This document shows positions 9,715-60,519 of a DNA stretch of 64,000 bases, one piece after another. A program made the position numbers and the translations under genes. How positions within the stretch are numbered: the first letter of the stretch is position 1; each line of letters opens with the position of its first letter. The notes under the pieces are model-generated. The model saw only the letters and a list, made by a program, of their open reading frames with translations. It did not search any database and had not been told where the DNA came from. Source of the DNA: Chloroflexaceae bacterium (GTDB lineage: Bacteria; Chloroflexota; Chloroflexia; Chloroflexales; Chloroflexaceae); contig JANQID010000034.1 of NCBI GenBank assembly GCA_028282325.1, forward strand, positions 1 to 64,000. Reading direction: 5' to 3'.

Positions 9715-10548
9715 TCATGGCATCCGCCAATCGTGCGGTTCGACATAACGCTCGCGCCGCCAGCGCCAACCCGGCTCCAGAATGACCCCCGGTGCAAGCA
9801 CATCGTACAACGCTAACAACGCATAGTAAATGACGACCAGTTGCTGCGCACGATTGCCCGGCTCGCCAAGCGGATGTCCGAATGGCCACTTGAGATGGAC
9901 GGTGCGCGGTGGGCGCACCTTCTCGGCTATGTCTTTCAGCCCATTCAGTGCAACCGTTGGCGTTCCGGTCGCTTCTATGGTGCGTGCGATCAGTCCCACG
10001 GACTGATTACACAGTCCTCAAGCCGGGGTCAGCAACACCGCGTCAACGCGATCTTGCTTTAACATACCGGCCGCCTGCGGTGCGGTTGTGCACAGCAACG
10101 TCTCGACGTACGGTGGCTTGATGTGGCCCATAAAGCTGTAGCACGTTGCCAGCGAGCCGATAATCTGGAGCTGTTCCAGTTCGCGAAACAGCTCCAGCGG
10201 GAACAGAATGTTCAGATCTTTCTCGGCGTCGCGGTGATCGTAATAGTCGTGCGTGATCGTGAGCTGATCGCGAGCTATATCGGCAGGGATCGCACGGAAG
10301 GTCGGATCGCCGCGCGGATCGTTCATATCGTAGGGCTGTTGATCAACTGTATGAACGCCGCCGGTGGTGATCAGCGCGATCCGCGCCCGATCGAGCGGCG
10401 TGCGCATCGCAGCGAACGGCGTCTCGCCAAACCGCAATGCGTTGAATGTACTCCCCCACAAACGAGCTAGCGCCGGTGACCGTGAAAAAACCTGGCCTAC
10501 TCCTTGATAGAGCAGGTGTAACAGTGAGTCTTGATTGTTTGTCGTCAT
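9715..10548 (-). CDS. GrdB/PrdB-family selenoprotein with in-frame UGA (selenocysteine 177)
   Basis: Reading through one TGA at 10020-10018 gives 277 residues. Without it the gene splits into a 176-residue front and a 100-residue tail in the same frame. The front has the component-B reductase pattern ALITTGGVH, DPRGDPTFRAIP, THDYYDHRDAEKDLNILFPL and SFMGHI. The join reads LLTPA-U-GLCNQSVGLIAR, so UGA falls where relatives carry Cys or Sec in a U/C-x-x-C redox pair. The tail keeps the family end (RPPRTVHLKWPFGHPLGEPGN). Component B subunits activate glycine, betaine, sarcosine or proline in Stickland-type reductases; this orphan has no GrdA/GrdC beside it, so its substrate is unknown and it may be a redox protein. 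selB lies in the same window. A Cys-to-stop mutation is the less likely alternative. Confidence 0.88.
9983..10013 (-). promoter_or_regulatory. SECIS-like hairpin directly after the UGA codon
   Basis: In the mRNA, the segment from 10013 down to 9983 folds as five pairs (two G-U), one A-C mismatch, then eight perfect pairs (AUCAGUCC with GGACUGAU) closed by a GUG loop. The loop starts 18 bases after the UGA. Bacterial SECIS models require a stem-loop just 3' of UGA, a UGA-to-loop distance of about 16-37 bases and a G early in the loop; all are met. It lies inside the coding frame, as bacterial SECIS elements do. It would be the binding site for the SelB C-terminal domain. Confidence 0.82.
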
Positions 10549-10588
10549 ATATTCACTAGAGCACCAAATAGGGGTGCTCTAACCGCGT

Positions 10589-11374
10589 TTATTCTAACGC
10601 TATTTCTGTTTCCACCTCGTCGCGCTCCAATTGCTCGTGCAGCGCGCGTTGATGCTCGACGACCGCGTGCTGATGCGCCTGATCGCCTTCAGGGCCGGAG
10701 CGCCGCTTGTCGAGGGCCGCGAAGACCGGCGAACATCCGTAAAGCGTCACCGTATCGTATGGCAGGATCTTCGTCTGGCCTTTGGGCGCGCCGATGTACT
10801 TACCGCCGGCGCGTTGAATGCCCAGCACCAGCACGCCCTCGTCGGCGAGAGCCAGTTCGACTAGCGATTTGCCTGCCAACCAGTCCTGCGGCTCCACATA
10901 GAGCTCAATGATTCCGTGTTCGCCTGACAAATGCAATACCTGTGCGTAGTCGCGTACGTCGATATGCGTCCAGCGCTTCAACGCCCATCCAACCAACGTG
11001 GACAGATGGGCGTCGATCCACTTGCTCGTAGAGATTAGCCAGAGGATGGTGATGCCGGCGAGCAGCCAGGACACGCGCCAGATCATATTGACCGGGCCGG
11101 TTGTGTTTACGAACGAGAGCACGGTTGAGGCGACGAAGGTTACGATCCCGATATTGCCCATTAACATTAGCAGCATAATGATCCGCCGCCGCACAGGATG
11201 ATTGACTACTTGCTCGGCTTCGGCGGTAGCGAACCCGACGCCCGAGAATGCCGAGCGCGCTTGAAAACGGGCTAGCTCACGCGATATGCCCGTCAGTGTC
11301 AAGGCTACGGTTGCGACGCGGGTAATCGCCAGTGATAGAGTTAATATGACTAACAGAGAGATAATAGCTGTCAT
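10589..11374 (-). CDS. membrane protein with TrkA-C (RCK_C) domain
   Basis: 261 residues: hydrophobic helices at about 1-28, 63-88 and 100-117, then a TrkA-C-like domain at about 150-225 with the pattern ELYVEPQDWLAGKSLVELAL ... GVLVLGIQR, and a charged His/Glu-rich tail. TrkA-C domains bind ligands such as cyclic di-AMP and gate ion transport. With only three helices it is not a channel by itself, so it may be a sensor or an accessory to a cation transporter. The start is set at ATG 11374, where the membrane helix begins; the frame stays open further upstream, but that stretch overlaps the end of the next gene. Confidence 0.7.
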   Translation of the reverse strand: MTAIISLLVILTLSLAITRVATVALTLTGISRELARFQARSAFSGVGFATAEAEQVVNHPVRRRIIMLLMLMGNIGIVTFVASTVLSFVNTTGPVNMIWRVSWLLAGITILWLISTSKWIDAHLSTLVGWALKRWTHIDVRDYAQVLHLSGEHGIIELYVEPQDWLAGKSLVELALADEGVLVLGIQRAGGKYIGAPKGQTKILPYDTVTLYGCSPVFAALDKRRSGPEGDQAHQHAVVEHQRALHEQLERDEVETEIALE

Positions 11375-11465
11375 TTGCAGAATACGTTTTACACGATTTG
11401 TCCTGAACGGCAGGACGATGACTGTTGAGGCTGAATAGCAAGGGATGACAGAAACGGCACCTCTA

Positions 11466-12134
11466 CTATAACATATGACGCAAAGCCGTTGATGCAAGGA
11501 ACGTGCGAGTATGCAGCGCGACATCGGCAGGCGCGGCGCGCAGATCGACGGCCAGGCGTTGCAAATCGGCGGCTGTATCGATATCATAACACATTGGCAG
11601 TAGTTCAACGCACAAGCCAAGTTGCCGGGCGATCTGCAATGTGTCTTGCAGCACGGCGGGCGTGCTCATCGGCATGTCGTGCAACAGGGCCGGCTGTGGT
11701 TGACGCAGCCCGATCAAATAGTAGCCGCCATCTTCGGCGGGGCCGAACACAGCATCGGCGCCGGCGGCGAGACGGTCGAATGCCATCTCGATGAAGTTTG
11801 GCGGCAGATGCGGAATATCGGAGCCGATTAGCACCGCCGGTGGGGCGACGGTGAGCGACTCGCGCAGTGCACGATCCATCCGTTCGCCAAGATCATCACC
11901 GCATTGGGATAAGGTGACCATCTCCGTAGCCAGTTGGGCGAAATACGGCCCGGCGGTTTCCGGGGTGTACGCAATAACACATCGCACGTCGGAAACCCGA
12001 TGCGCGATGTGCAGAACATCTTGCAGAAAGCATGTGTAGAGCGCCGCCGCCAGCGCACCGTCGAGCGGCGGACACAATCGTGTCTTCGTCTGCCCGACGA
12101 TTGGCTCGCGAGCAAAAACAATCAGCGACGGCAT
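11466..12134 (-). CDS. DUF2064 / TIGR04282-type glycosyltransferase-like protein
   Basis: 222 residues with the nucleotidyl/glycosyl-transferase fold of the DUF2064 group: IVFAREPIVGQTKTRL near the N-terminus (the phosphate-binding loop), VLIGSDIPHLPP (about 100-112) and FGPAEDGGYYLIGL (about 128-142). The group is annotated as an arsenosugar-biosynthesis glycosyltransferase in some genomes, but this is not established for most members. Its ATG lies 2 bp after the stop of the desaturase gene, so the two are an operon and may share a carotenoid or lipid-sugar role. Confidence 0.8.
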   Translation of the reverse strand: MPSLIVFAREPIVGQTKTRLCPPLDGALAAALYTCFLQDVLHIAHRVSDVRCVIAYTPETAGPYFAQLATEMVTLSQCGDDLGERMDRALRESLTVAPPAVLIGSDIPHLPPNFIEMAFDRLAAGADAVFGPAEDGGYYLIGLRQPQPALLHDMPMSTPAVLQDTLQIARQLGLCVELLPMCYDIDTAADLQRLAVDLRAAPADVALHTRTFLASTALRHML

Positions 12135-12136
12135 GC

Positions 12137-13657
12137 CTACGCACCCTGGGGTGCCGCGACCATCGTGCGGCTTGGGGCCGGCTGCTCCTTCAACACACGC
12201 TCAATGACCAGCCGGGCTGACAGCAACACCAGCGGAACGCCTGTGCCGGGATGTGTGCTTGCGCCGACGAAATAGAGATTGCCGTAGCGCGGGTGGCGAT
12301 TGTGCGGTCGCAAATAGCCCACCTGGGTGAAGTTATGGCTCAAGCCGAACGCCGAACCTTTGGCAAGATTCAACACGTTCTCGTAGTCGGGCGGCATTAT
12401 TGTCGTCTCGGAAATGATGCGGCTCTCCAGGTCACGCACGCCTAGGCGCGCCAGGCGCTCGAACACGGCGTTGCGGGCTTTTTGCCGCAACGCTTCCCAC
12501 TGCTGGGGGCTTTTGTCGTTGATGTGACCGGTCGGCACCAGCGCCATCAGGTTGTCGTGATCGGGCGGCGCGAATGTCGGATCGGTGCGCGTCGGCGCGC
12601 AAATATAGAATGACGGCTCATCGGGTAGCGTCAATTCGTCAAAGATGCGCACGAACGAGCGATAATAGTCGTGGTCGGACAGGAACACGTTGTGATGCAG
12701 AAACTCTTTGATCTGCCCGCCCTTGACGCCCCAATAGAACATAAACGCCGACGAGGTGTACTTCTTCTTCGCCAGCCGCGGTGCCGTGCCGTTTTTGGGC
12801 AGCAACTTTGAGTAGGCGTACGGCAGATCGGCGTTGGCAATCACCACATCAGCCTGCATCTGCACGCCGTCGGTCAGTTTCACCCCGGTTGCACGCTGGC
12901 CATCGACCATAATCTCGCTGACCGGCGCGTTATACATAAACTGTACGCCGAGACCTTCGGCAATCGCCGTCAGTTTCTCGACCACCTGATATATACCGCC
13001 GCGCGGGAACCAGACGCCCTCGGCCATCTCGGTGAACTGGAGCAGCGAATAGGTTGCCAGTGCATCGTATGGGCTAAGGCCCAGATACATGTTCTGGAAC
13101 GTGAATGCGGCCCGCAAGCGCGGATCGCGGAAATAGCGACTGACGTTGGGATAGTGCTTCTGCAGCGCCTTGAGCTGGATCAGCAGCGGCAGATTCGCCG
13201 GGCTGAAGTATTCCAGCAACGATCTAAAGTTACGCCCGACAAAGCGATCGAGCGAGATGTAGTAGTGTCGATAGCCTTCGCTCAGGTACCGCAGCAACCC
13301 ATCGAAAGACCCCGGCTCGATTGCGTCCATCTGCTTGCGCATATCGATCAAGTCGGAGGTCAGATTGATCGAAGTGCTATCGTGGAAATGCACGCGGTAG
13401 GTTGGATCAATGCGGATCAGGTCGAGATGATCCTCCATCCGTTCTCCGAGTGCAGTAAATGTTTCGGCAAAGGTTTCCGGCATCAGGAAAAGCGTCGGGC
13501 CGGTATCGAAGCGGAAACCGTCTTTTTCAAGCATGGCCGTGCGACCGCCGGGTCGCGCGTTTTTCTCCAGCACGGTGACTTGATAGCCGGCGCGGGCCAG
13601 GCGAGCGGCAGCGCCAATACCGCCGACACCGGCGCCTATCACAAGAGCCGTACTCAT
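12137..13657 (-). CDS. phytoene desaturase family FAD oxidoreductase (CrtI/CrtD type)
   Basis: 506 residues. The N-terminal Rossmann dinucleotide motif VIGAGVGGIGAAARLARAGY (6-25) is followed by EKNARPGGR and GFRFDTGPTLF, the hallmark of carotenoid desaturases. The C-terminal FAD motif is FVGASTHPGTGVPLVLLSARLV. It would introduce double bases in a C40 carotene, or act as a related carotenoid oxidoreductase, at the membrane using FAD. AAGGAG sits just upstream of ATG 13657. First gene of an operon with the DUF2064 protein and perhaps the TrkA-C protein, and divergent from the MerR/TipAS regulator. Confidence 0.88.
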   Translation of the reverse strand: MSTALVIGAGVGGIGAAARLARAGYQVTVLEKNARPGGRTAMLEKDGFRFDTGPTLFLMPETFAETFTALGERMEDHLDLIRIDPTYRVHFHDSTSINLTSDLIDMRKQMDAIEPGSFDGLLRYLSEGYRHYYISLDRFVGRNFRSLLEYFSPANLPLLIQLKALQKHYPNVSRYFRDPRLRAAFTFQNMYLGLSPYDALATYSLLQFTEMAEGVWFPRGGIYQVVEKLTAIAEGLGVQFMYNAPVSEIMVDGQRATGVKLTDGVQMQADVVIANADLPYAYSKLLPKNGTAPRLAKKKYTSSAFMFYWGVKGGQIKEFLHHNVFLSDHDYYRSFVRIFDELTLPDEPSFYICAPTRTDPTFAPPDHDNLMALVPTGHINDKSPQQWEALRQKARNAVFERLARLGVRDLESRIISETTIMPPDYENVLNLAKGSAFGLSHNFTQVGYLRPHNRHPRYGNLYFVGASTHPGTGVPLVLLSARLVIERVLKEQPAPSRTMVAAPQGA

Positions 13658-17540: not shown

Positions 17541-18298
17541 GATTGTTCTCCTGTTCTACGGATACTCCGTGCAGCGTAGTAACATCAGCCATCTGGGCGC
17601 TCTGGCACAAAAATCTTCTGAGTTTGTGAGAATCGTTCAGGAGGCGAGTCGCCTTAGAACTCTTTCTACACGCTCAGAAGACTTCCAACGAGCATATCGT
17701 TTGTGTCAGGCTATTACTACCTTCCAGCAGTCAACCTCCTCTAGACTCGATGCCAAACACCCTGCGACTTTATCCAACCGTCGTTACTACACACTCTTCC
17801 CATACGGCTCGCGTACGATTGGACACCCGACGTTGAGCGCTTTCTCTAGCTTGAGATCGTATAGATTTAGATCGGAAAGCGACAACAGAACAACTATAGA
17901 CGTTATCGGTGGAATTTGCAAATAACCAACCGGAAACAGTTTGTGTGTGGAAGTATCGTCGAAATAATTGATGGCAATGGGCTAGGGTGGCATTTGCGAA
18001 CGATGAATCTATGAAGCAGAGGGTATGTCGGTATCGCTCCGAAAAGCCTATTGATATGGGAAATACTGTCAATTTGAGCGTCTCTGCTCTAACGGGCGCA
18101 AATCGTTGCAAGATTTGCAGTTTGTAGAGCAATGCCAGCCGGCGATCCGCACCATACGTGATTGAGCCGAATACGTTTGTGGACAGCATCATTGAATACG
18201 CCATTCTACACTTGATCACGCTCTGTGGCGATGTTACAATATTTGTTACGATATTCTCAAAGAATAGCTCTTTACCGTGTGCGCAATTCGATGCAGCG
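17541..18298. other. long intergenic region between betaine methyltransferase and selB
   Basis: 758 bp without a convincing gene; frames on both strands lack family motifs and ribosome sites. It must hold the divergent promoters. The clearest structure is 18085-18131: TGCTCTA pairs with TAGAGCA, and after a symmetric 6/6 internal loop GCAAATC pairs with GATTTGC around a 7-base loop. This hairpin lies about 170 bp before selB. I saw no tRNA-Sec: no GGTTCGA-type T arm with a long variable arm. Confidence 0.5.
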
Positions 18299-20146
18299 AT
18301 GTATGTTATTGGAACAGCCGGCCATGTTGATCATGGCAAATCGACCCTGGTAAAGGCGTTGACCGGCATTGATCCGGATCGTTGGGAAGAAGAACAGCGA
18401 CGTGAGATGACGATCGATCTGGGTTTCGCCTGGTTGACTTTGCCCAGTGGTCGTTCGGTTAGCGTTATTGATGTTCCGGGGCACGAACGTTTTATCAAAA
18501 ATATGCTCGCTGGCATCGGCGGGATTGACGCCGCGATATTGGTAATCGCCGCTGATGAGTCAATAATGCCGCAAACCAGTGAACATCTGGCTATTCTCGA
18601 CTTGCTCGGTATTGAGCGTGGCCTTGTGGCAGTCACTAAAGCCGATCTCGTCGATAGCGAGTGGATGGCGCTGGTCGAGGATGAGATTGCTGAACATCTG
18701 GCGCATACGACGTTTGCGACAGCGCCGCGCGTGGCAGTATCCGCACGAACGAGTCAGGGGATTGACGAGTTGCGCGCCGTGCTTGACGCTGTTCTTGATG
18801 CGACGCCGTCGCGTACCCTGAAAGATGGGGTTCCGCGTATGCCAATCGATCGCTCGTTTACCATTGCGGGCTTTGGCACTGTGGTTACGGGCACGCTTCT
18901 TGATGGGCCGCTGGCGGTAGGGCAAGAAGTCGAGATTATGCCGCGTCGCCTGCGCGGGCGAATACGTGGACTGCAAATCCACAAGCAACGAGGTGAACAG
19001 GCGACCCCGGGCAGACGCGTCGCCGTTAATCTATCTGGTATTCATCATACGGCTATTGTACGCGGCGACGTTCTCACTCTGCCTGATGCAATTGAGCCGA
19101 CAGATCGCATCGATGTTCAGCTTCGCTTGATTCACTATGCAACGCCGCTGAAACAGAATGCTACGCTGGATCTTTTTGTCGGTGCGAGCGAAGTGCGTTG
19201 TCGTATTACATTGCTTGATCAGGAGATACTGGCGCCGGGCGCGTTGGGATGGGTGCAGATGCGCCTGGAGCATCCCGTCGTTGTCCTACGCGGCGACCAT
19301 TATATCGTTCGCCAGCCTTCTCCCAGCATTACCGTTGGCGGTGGAGTAATCATCGATTCACACCCGCTGCGCCATCGCCGTTTCCGTGCTGATGTTGCGA
19401 AAACGCTGGAGGCGCTGGCTCGCGGAACGCCGGATGAGGTGTTACTTCAGGTGTTGGGTGATGGCTTGCCCCGGGAGAGAGGTGTGCTGATGCGGGCGGG
19501 CGCTATGAGCGATGCTGCTATGCACGAAGGACTAGCGCAATTGCTGGAGAAGGGCGACGTGGTGCAACTCTCGGAAACGTTGCTGATCTCGGCGCAAGGC
19601 TGGCAATATCTAGAACAGCAGTTGTGCAACACACTGCAAGCTTATCACCAGCGCTACCCGTTGCGTCGGGGTATGCCGCGCGAAGAATTGCGTCAGCGCT
19701 TGCAGCTAGACGCGCGCCAGTTGAATGCGGTGCTTAGCTTTGCATCCCAATGCGGGGTCTCTCATAGCAACGAGATCGGCGTCTGGTTGAGTGAGCACAA
19801 ACTTGCGCTTACGCGCGAGCAACAACATAAGTTGGATCGCCAACTCGATGCTATCCGCCGGATGCCCTATAGTCCACCGGCGCCTGATCTCGAACCGGAA
19901 TTGCTCGCCTGGGCGCTTGAGCAAGGTTTGCTGATCCATATCGGTGCGGATATTTACTTCCTACCGGAAACGTATGCTGCCATGCTGGAATGGATACGGG
20001 AGACGATTGTTGCTGAGGGCGGTGTGCATATTGGCCAGTTTCGTGATCGGTTTGGCAGCAGCCGTAAGTATGCGCTGGCCTTTATGGAACATCTTGACGA
20101 GCGTAAGATTACACGACGCAGCGATGATGTGCGGGTGCTCTATTAG
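18299..20146 (+). CDS. selB: selenocysteine-specific elongation factor SelB
   Basis: 615 residues from ATG 18299; the upstream 47-codon extension of the same frame carries no family sequence. The GTPase has G1 GTAGHVDHGKST (5-16), G3 DVPGHE (58-63) and G4 TKAD (113-116). EF-Tu-like domains 2 and 3 follow (FTIAGFGTVVTGTLL), then about 250 residues of C-terminal winged helices that bind the SECIS hairpin. GHVDHGKSTL with 'ALTGIDPDR' separates SelB from EF-Tu. It delivers Sec-tRNA to UGA codons. Its presence shows that the organism can insert selenocysteine; selA, selC and selD are not in the window. Confidence 0.95.
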   Translation: MYVIGTAGHVDHGKSTLVKALTGIDPDRWEEEQRREMTIDLGFAWLTLPSGRSVSVIDVPGHERFIKNMLAGIGGIDAAILVIAADESIMPQTSEHLAILDLLGIERGLVAVTKADLVDSEWMALVEDEIAEHLAHTTFATAPRVAVSARTSQGIDELRAVLDAVLDATPSRTLKDGVPRMPIDRSFTIAGFGTVVTGTLLDGPLAVGQEVEIMPRRLRGRIRGLQIHKQRGEQATPGRRVAVNLSGIHHTAIVRGDVLTLPDAIEPTDRIDVQLRLIHYATPLKQNATLDLFVGASEVRCRITLLDQEILAPGALGWVQMRLEHPVVVLRGDHYIVRQPSPSITVGGGVIIDSHPLRHRRFRADVAKTLEALARGTPDEVLLQVLGDGLPRERGVLMRAGAMSDAAMHEGLAQLLEKGDVVQLSETLLISAQGWQYLEQQLCNTLQAYHQRYPLRRGMPREELRQRLQLDARQLNAVLSFASQCGVSHSNEIGVWLSEHKLALTREQQHKLDRQLDAIRRMPYSPPAPDLEPELLAWALEQGLLIHIGADIYFLPETYAAMLEWIRETIVAEGGVHIGQFRDRFGSSRKYALAFMEHLDERKITRRSDDVRVLY

Positions 20147-60432: not shown

Positions 60433-60519
<87 letters not shown>

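Follow-up and report, generated by a model that had tools for sequence, protein, structure and literature searches.

The closest described systems to the gene analysed here are the selenocysteine (Sec) proteins PrdB, of D-proline reductase, and GrdB with GrdF/GrdH, of glycine, sarcosine and betaine reductase. In the described chemistry of PrdB and GrdB, a pyruvoyl subunit first activates the substrate as a Schiff base, which the selenolate then attacks (PMC10838667, PMC13188914). Fluoroacetate reductase offers a further case, since its FarB is a GrdB-like selenoprotein for which direct attack on the C-F bond without a Schiff base has been proposed; FarB, which lacks CxxC, works with the GrdE-like FarE and is thought to feed GrdA/GrdC (PMC10838667). 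For the protein described below, fluoroacetate reductase serves as a chemical precedent and not as a relative by membership, and no partner of the FarE type (PF09338) was found in the genome.

Selenoproteome catalogues have listed UxxC selenoproteins from outside the Stickland bacteria as 'proline reductase PrdB' since 2005, so the kind itself is already known and not new. The catalogued sequences comprise 42 genes from the Sargasso Sea (PMC1088965), 235 from GOS, which is reported to rank them with the most abundant selenoproteins of marine samples (PMC2398784), and proteins of Anaeromyxobacter and Geobacter uraniireducens (PMC1794560), all described as UxxC proteins of organisms not known for Stickland fermentation. 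Among bacterial selenoproteins, PrdB is also ranked as one of the five that are most widespread (PMC9312934). In the sections of these catalogues that deal with them, the sequences are filed as proline reductase, and neither clade membership nor the absence of PrdA is tested (PMC1088965, PMC2398784, PMC1794560), and the part of a 2026 inventory that lists D-proline reductase and GrdB has no separate orphan family (PMC13188914). Judged by their description, the Sargasso Sea, GOS, Anaeromyxobacter and G. uraniireducens proteins are plausibly members of the clade defined below; the broad spread and marine abundance of 'PrdB' would be puzzling if its role were amino-acid fermentation only. The new elements are the evidence that sets this clade apart from true PrdB, the absence of known partners and the residues specific to the clade.

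The predicted selenoprotein gene and its protein families

The gene lies in what we call the window, the whole 64,000-nucleotide stretch of Chloroflexaceae DNA that was analysed. The features needed in what follows are:

9715..10548, minus strand: predicted selenoprotein gene of the PrdB superfamily, 277 codons, of which codon 177 is a UGA read as Sec
10018..10020, minus strand: in-frame TGA, predicted Sec-177, first residue of UxxC (U177-G-L-C180)
9989..10007, minus strand: SECIS-like hairpin, beginning 10 nt past the UGA, with an 8-bp stem (AUCAGUCC/GGACUGAU) and apical GUG
10589-11620: TrkA-C domain gene, upstream of the selenoprotein gene
18158..20146, plus strand: selB, Sec-specific elongation factor (TIGR00475, 351 bits against a cut-off of 242; domain match 18305-20128)

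Inspection of the minus-strand frame places the ATG at 10548 and the terminal TGA at 9717-9715, and the single interruption of the 10548-9715 frame is the TGA at codon 177, in the context LTPA-U-GLC-NQSVGLIAR. The NCBIfam PrdB profile TIGR04483 matches the read-through product over residues 45-251 with 133.8 bits. Taken separately, the halves before and after the TGA score 82.6 and 24.8 bits in the same frame, so the sequence on the two sides makes up one protein. The Pfam GRDB profile PF07355 also matches, with 28.5 bits and thus above its gathering score of 22. These matches bear out the original prediction of a GrdB/PrdB-like gene split by a single in-frame UGA with family-type sequence flanking it in one frame, and the predicted coordinates proved exact.

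The window protein has the superfamily, length class and UGxC motif of PrdB, but its TIGR04483 score is below the PrdB cut-off of 300 bits, whereas a comparison PrdB encoded in a prd operon reaches 420 bits. GrdB and GrdF/GrdH likewise have Sec in UxxC and are matched through their C-terminal half: of the approximately 430 residues of full-length GrdB only this half is covered, from about model position 215, and the scores on TIGR01917/01918 are below the NCBIfam cut-offs (41.6 against 602 bits for GrdB and 49.8 against 65.45 bits for the general selenoprotein B subfamily).

Decoding of the UGA codon

Relatives gathered from Chloroflexales genomes and by a one-genome-per-species search amount to 96 distinct close sequences, whose lineages include Chloroflexota, Desulfobacterota-type bacteria, Nitrospirota, Acidobacteriota, Rokuibacteriota, Wallbacteria and others; no relative was found in the viral contigs searched. 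In all 96 the U of UxxC is encoded by TGA (the alignment shows it for 95; L131, offset by one residue, has U there too), so chance does not explain it; the motif is UGxC or a close variant, and all have Cys three residues past the UGA. The 27 distant Chloroflexota relatives examined, with the motif U/C-P-x-C, are divided between Sec (11) and Cys (16). Every homologue examined thus has Sec or Cys at column 177, as had been predicted. A pseudogene or sequencing error was rejected on the conservation of the UGA codon across relatives.

In RNA order the downstream hairpin reads AUCAGUCC-GUG-GGACUGAU, a stem-loop directly 3' of the UGA with a G in its small apical loop, and a small apical loop with G is the bacterial SECIS feature given as accepted in PMC1088965. 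Counted by sequences, not independent events, the stem pairs in 95.7% of cells among 46 sequences (sliding the partner strand gives 51% at most), cells altered on both stem sides number 20 compared with 5.9 ± 1.9 in shuffles of the same 46, and among 92 sequences position 18 (a Gln wobble base) covaries perfectly with position 28 (the first base of a Leu codon), with 79 G-C and 13 A-U pairs, and an Asn wobble base also covaries with an Ile/Val codon at its first position. The position 18/28 changes are synonymous on both sides (CAG/CAA with CTG/TTG). The stability of the window hairpin itself is modest and not decisive, as 149 of 2000 synonymous recodings are as low. The hairpin is conserved through compensatory, partly synonymous changes, which is what one expects of a bacterial SECIS.

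The original prediction had named a genome lacking selA, selC and selD as evidence against it; all three are found (selC being tRNA-Sec), together with selB. The selB gene is in the same window at a distance of 8 kb, outside the operon of the selenoprotein gene, and selA, tRNA-Sec and selD are on other contigs. The true tRNA-Sec scores 70.6 bits (contig C21); a tRNA-Leu(CAA) in the window at 60433-60519 on the plus strand reaches 48.1 against the Rfam tRNA-Sec gathering score of 47 and is a false positive. The selD gene (L026, G000:C133:15617-16543) itself has an in-frame TGA, in the catalytic motif GCAG-U, and is likely a second selenoprotein gene of the same genome. Among 31 Chloroflexales genomes the PrdB-like family is present in 15 of the 23 with selA and in one of the eight without (Fisher p 0.015), the lone carrier among these eight being an assembly (G028) that is 86% complete; this co-occurrence is modest and in the expected direction.

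Given the conservation of the UGA, the Sec/Cys exchange, the conserved hairpin, the Sec machinery and the co-occurrence with selA, the gene almost certainly encodes a selenoprotein, with selenocysteine specified by the UGA at codon 177.

Clade, partner genes and gene neighbourhood

A maximum-likelihood tree places the proteins that we call orphans in one group (100/97) and PrdB in another (100/100), and the clade of PrdB encoded beside PrdA (100/100) excludes the window protein. PrdB groups with the Chloroflexota U/C-P-x-C-H proteins (L171-L190) and not with the orphan clade; these proteins are homologous, have Sec or Cys at the same column, and differ from the orphans in having Tyr or Phe at the position of H142. 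Sec and Cys rows are interleaved within L171-L190, which suggests repeated Sec/Cys conversion there. The tree has several long-branched rows of uncertain placement and two exceptions, L118b, which is labelled orphan and lies outside the main group, and far_L167, a distant Sec row that lies inside it.

Residues common to orphans and PrdB are H66, R85, H100, D111, R189, E192 and R215 along with Sec177 and Cys180, which suggests that the two share a catalytic core. Three other histidines separate them: H142 is His in 94 of 94 orphans and Gly in 6 of 6 PrdB (in the FMGGGG loop of PrdB), H105 is His in 94 of 94 and Asn in PrdB, and H225 is His in 93 of 94 and Ala or Ser in PrdB. The window protein also differs from PrdB in its N-terminus and in a C-terminal W263xR265.

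Profile searches detected no PrdA in this genome (G000), in 40 relatives or in 17 other carrier genomes, with two prd-bearing records as positive controls at 972-975 bits. GrdA is absent from this genome and the same number of other carriers (17; two controls at 260 bits), and PF09338, the family of pyruvoyl-forming partners of the GrdE type that includes the FarE type, is absent from 34 genomes, with three positive controls detected. The predicted lack of a GrdA or PrdA partner therefore holds genome-wide and extends to other carriers. The description of the protein as an orphan stands in the sense of partnerless; it does not stand in the sense of rare, because the clade is large and spans several phyla.

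Across 94 loci the neighbours include no prd gene and no gene shared across clades that might be a subunit. In one delta-proteobacterial-type group, 15 loci have a rhodanese gene that adjoins the relative in the same orientation, in most cases immediately upstream of it (L078, L080, L082, L084, L085, L093, L094, L096, L101, L103, L113, L115, L126, L129 and L131), which hints at sulfur chemistry in that group. These rhodaneses are of the two-domain type and may be exported, because their hydrophobic N-termini resemble signal peptides. In a single Chloroflexales genus, six loci have a thioredoxin gene some 150 bp upstream. Since both contexts are lineage-limited, functional linkage through neighbours was dropped.

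In the window, the upstream TrkA-C domain gene forms no shared cluster with the neighbours of the other copies among the 94 loci. Between its stop and the selenoprotein start is a perfect 8-bp inverted repeat (AGAGCACC-N7-GGTGCTCT, 10558-10580), a possible terminator or leader element. Farther upstream are a gene of family TIGR04282 ('arsenosugar biosynthesis glycosyltransferase') at 11466-12134 on the minus strand and, adjoining it, a crtI-type carotenoid desaturase gene at 12137-13657.

Predicted structure, alternative readings and proposed chemistry

AlphaFold2 confidently predicts an alpha/beta fold (mean pLDDT 93.9, pTM 0.91) in which H66, H100, H142 and Sec177 are at or directly after strands, with H225 a few residues farther on. 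Active sites of alpha/beta folds lie at or just after strands. From the secondary structure of the model we infer that the conserved His residues may form one His-rich pocket that takes the place of a pyruvoyl subunit. Among solved structures, sequence comparison gave only a chance match and Foldseek no clear match (best E 0.048); the best VIA Z of 7.6, to LacI-type alpha/beta folds, may reflect a common arrangement only.

Several other readings of the gene can be weighed against these observations. Standard translation would terminate at the TGA, and a real stop or an error there would leave a pseudogene or a truncated 176-residue protein; with UGA at the same codon in several phyla, conserved sequence beyond it, the hairpin and the Sec machinery, we regard the chance of this as negligible. 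The protein might instead be an ordinary PrdB subunit of D-proline reductase, the label that selenoproteome catalogues give such sequences, and it agrees with that label in being homologous to PrdB from end to end, in its UGxC motif and in the shared residues H66 to R215 listed above. A score less than half the cut-off, the absence of PrdA from this and other carrier genomes, the separate clade and the differences at H142, H105 and H225 make it very improbable, and a true D-proline or glycine reductase was rejected on the cut-offs, the clade and the absent partners.

All characterised members of the family work in complexes, and the GrdB-like FarB pairs with a FarE that lost the pyruvoyl cysteines (PMC10838667), which by analogy could argue that the window protein too has a partner, from some unrecognised family, to provide a carbonyl group or to bind the substrate. 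Such a partner is unlikely, given that no gene accompanies the selenoprotein across clades, that the only frequent neighbour is the rhodanese of one delta-proteobacterial group, and that PF09338, to which partners of this kind belong, is absent. We are similarly doubtful that the protein serves redox housekeeping, as a general reductase of the thiol/disulfide, sulfane-sulfur or peroxide type, rather than being a metabolic reductase. The UxxC motif, the 15 same-strand rhodanese neighbours and the six upstream thioredoxin genes would fit that role, but the rhodaneses have signal-like starts and may be exported, the thioredoxin context is confined to one genus, and the many invariant residues beyond UxxC suggest a specific substrate pocket.

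We favour, as the probable reading, a single-subunit reductase of the PrdB superfamily that acquires Sec through the genome's own SelA/SelB/tRNA-Sec/SelD, acts on an electrophilic substrate and uses Cys180 for resolution. The first step of this scheme, decoding of the UGA by the SelA/SelB/tRNA-Sec/SelD system under the direction of the hairpin just downstream, is strongly supported by the sequence comparisons. The product would be a cytoplasmic reductase of one subunit, belonging to the PrdB/GrdB beta-subunit superfamily; its Sec177 selenolate would follow a core beta strand and share a putative pocket with the conserved H66, R85, H100, D111 and R215 as well as with H105, H142 and H225, the histidines specific to the clade. 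The selenolate would attack a small electrophilic substrate, Cys180 would turn the adduct into a selenenyl-sulfide, and a thioredoxin-type thiol donor would reduce the selenenyl-sulfide and restore thiol and selenol. Since no pyruvoyl partner is encoded, there would be no Schiff-base activation of an amino acid, unlike in glycine or D-proline reductase, and the substrate would have to be already electrophilic, through an activated C-S, C-N or C-halogen bond or through an S-S, Se or peroxide bond, or else be activated in another way.

That a multi-phylum clade without partners has kept Sec in all its close members suggests some other reaction that requires selenium. More tentatively, these proteins may constitute a separate selenoenzyme class, single-subunit Sec/Cys reductases that carry out GrdB/PrdB-like reductive cleavage without a pyruvoyl partner, with H105, H142 and H225 binding or activating the substrate, and this class could include many of the catalogued 'PrdB' proteins of non-fermenting and marine bacteria. 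Single-subunit members in culturable Chloroflexus or Geobacter-type strains make the idea testable.

We also note a paralogous PrdB-like group in Chloroflexales that has members with two in-frame TGAs (L207, G025:C42, and another at G028:C53); in L207 the motif is A-U-P-I-U-H, that is, UxxU instead of UxxC.
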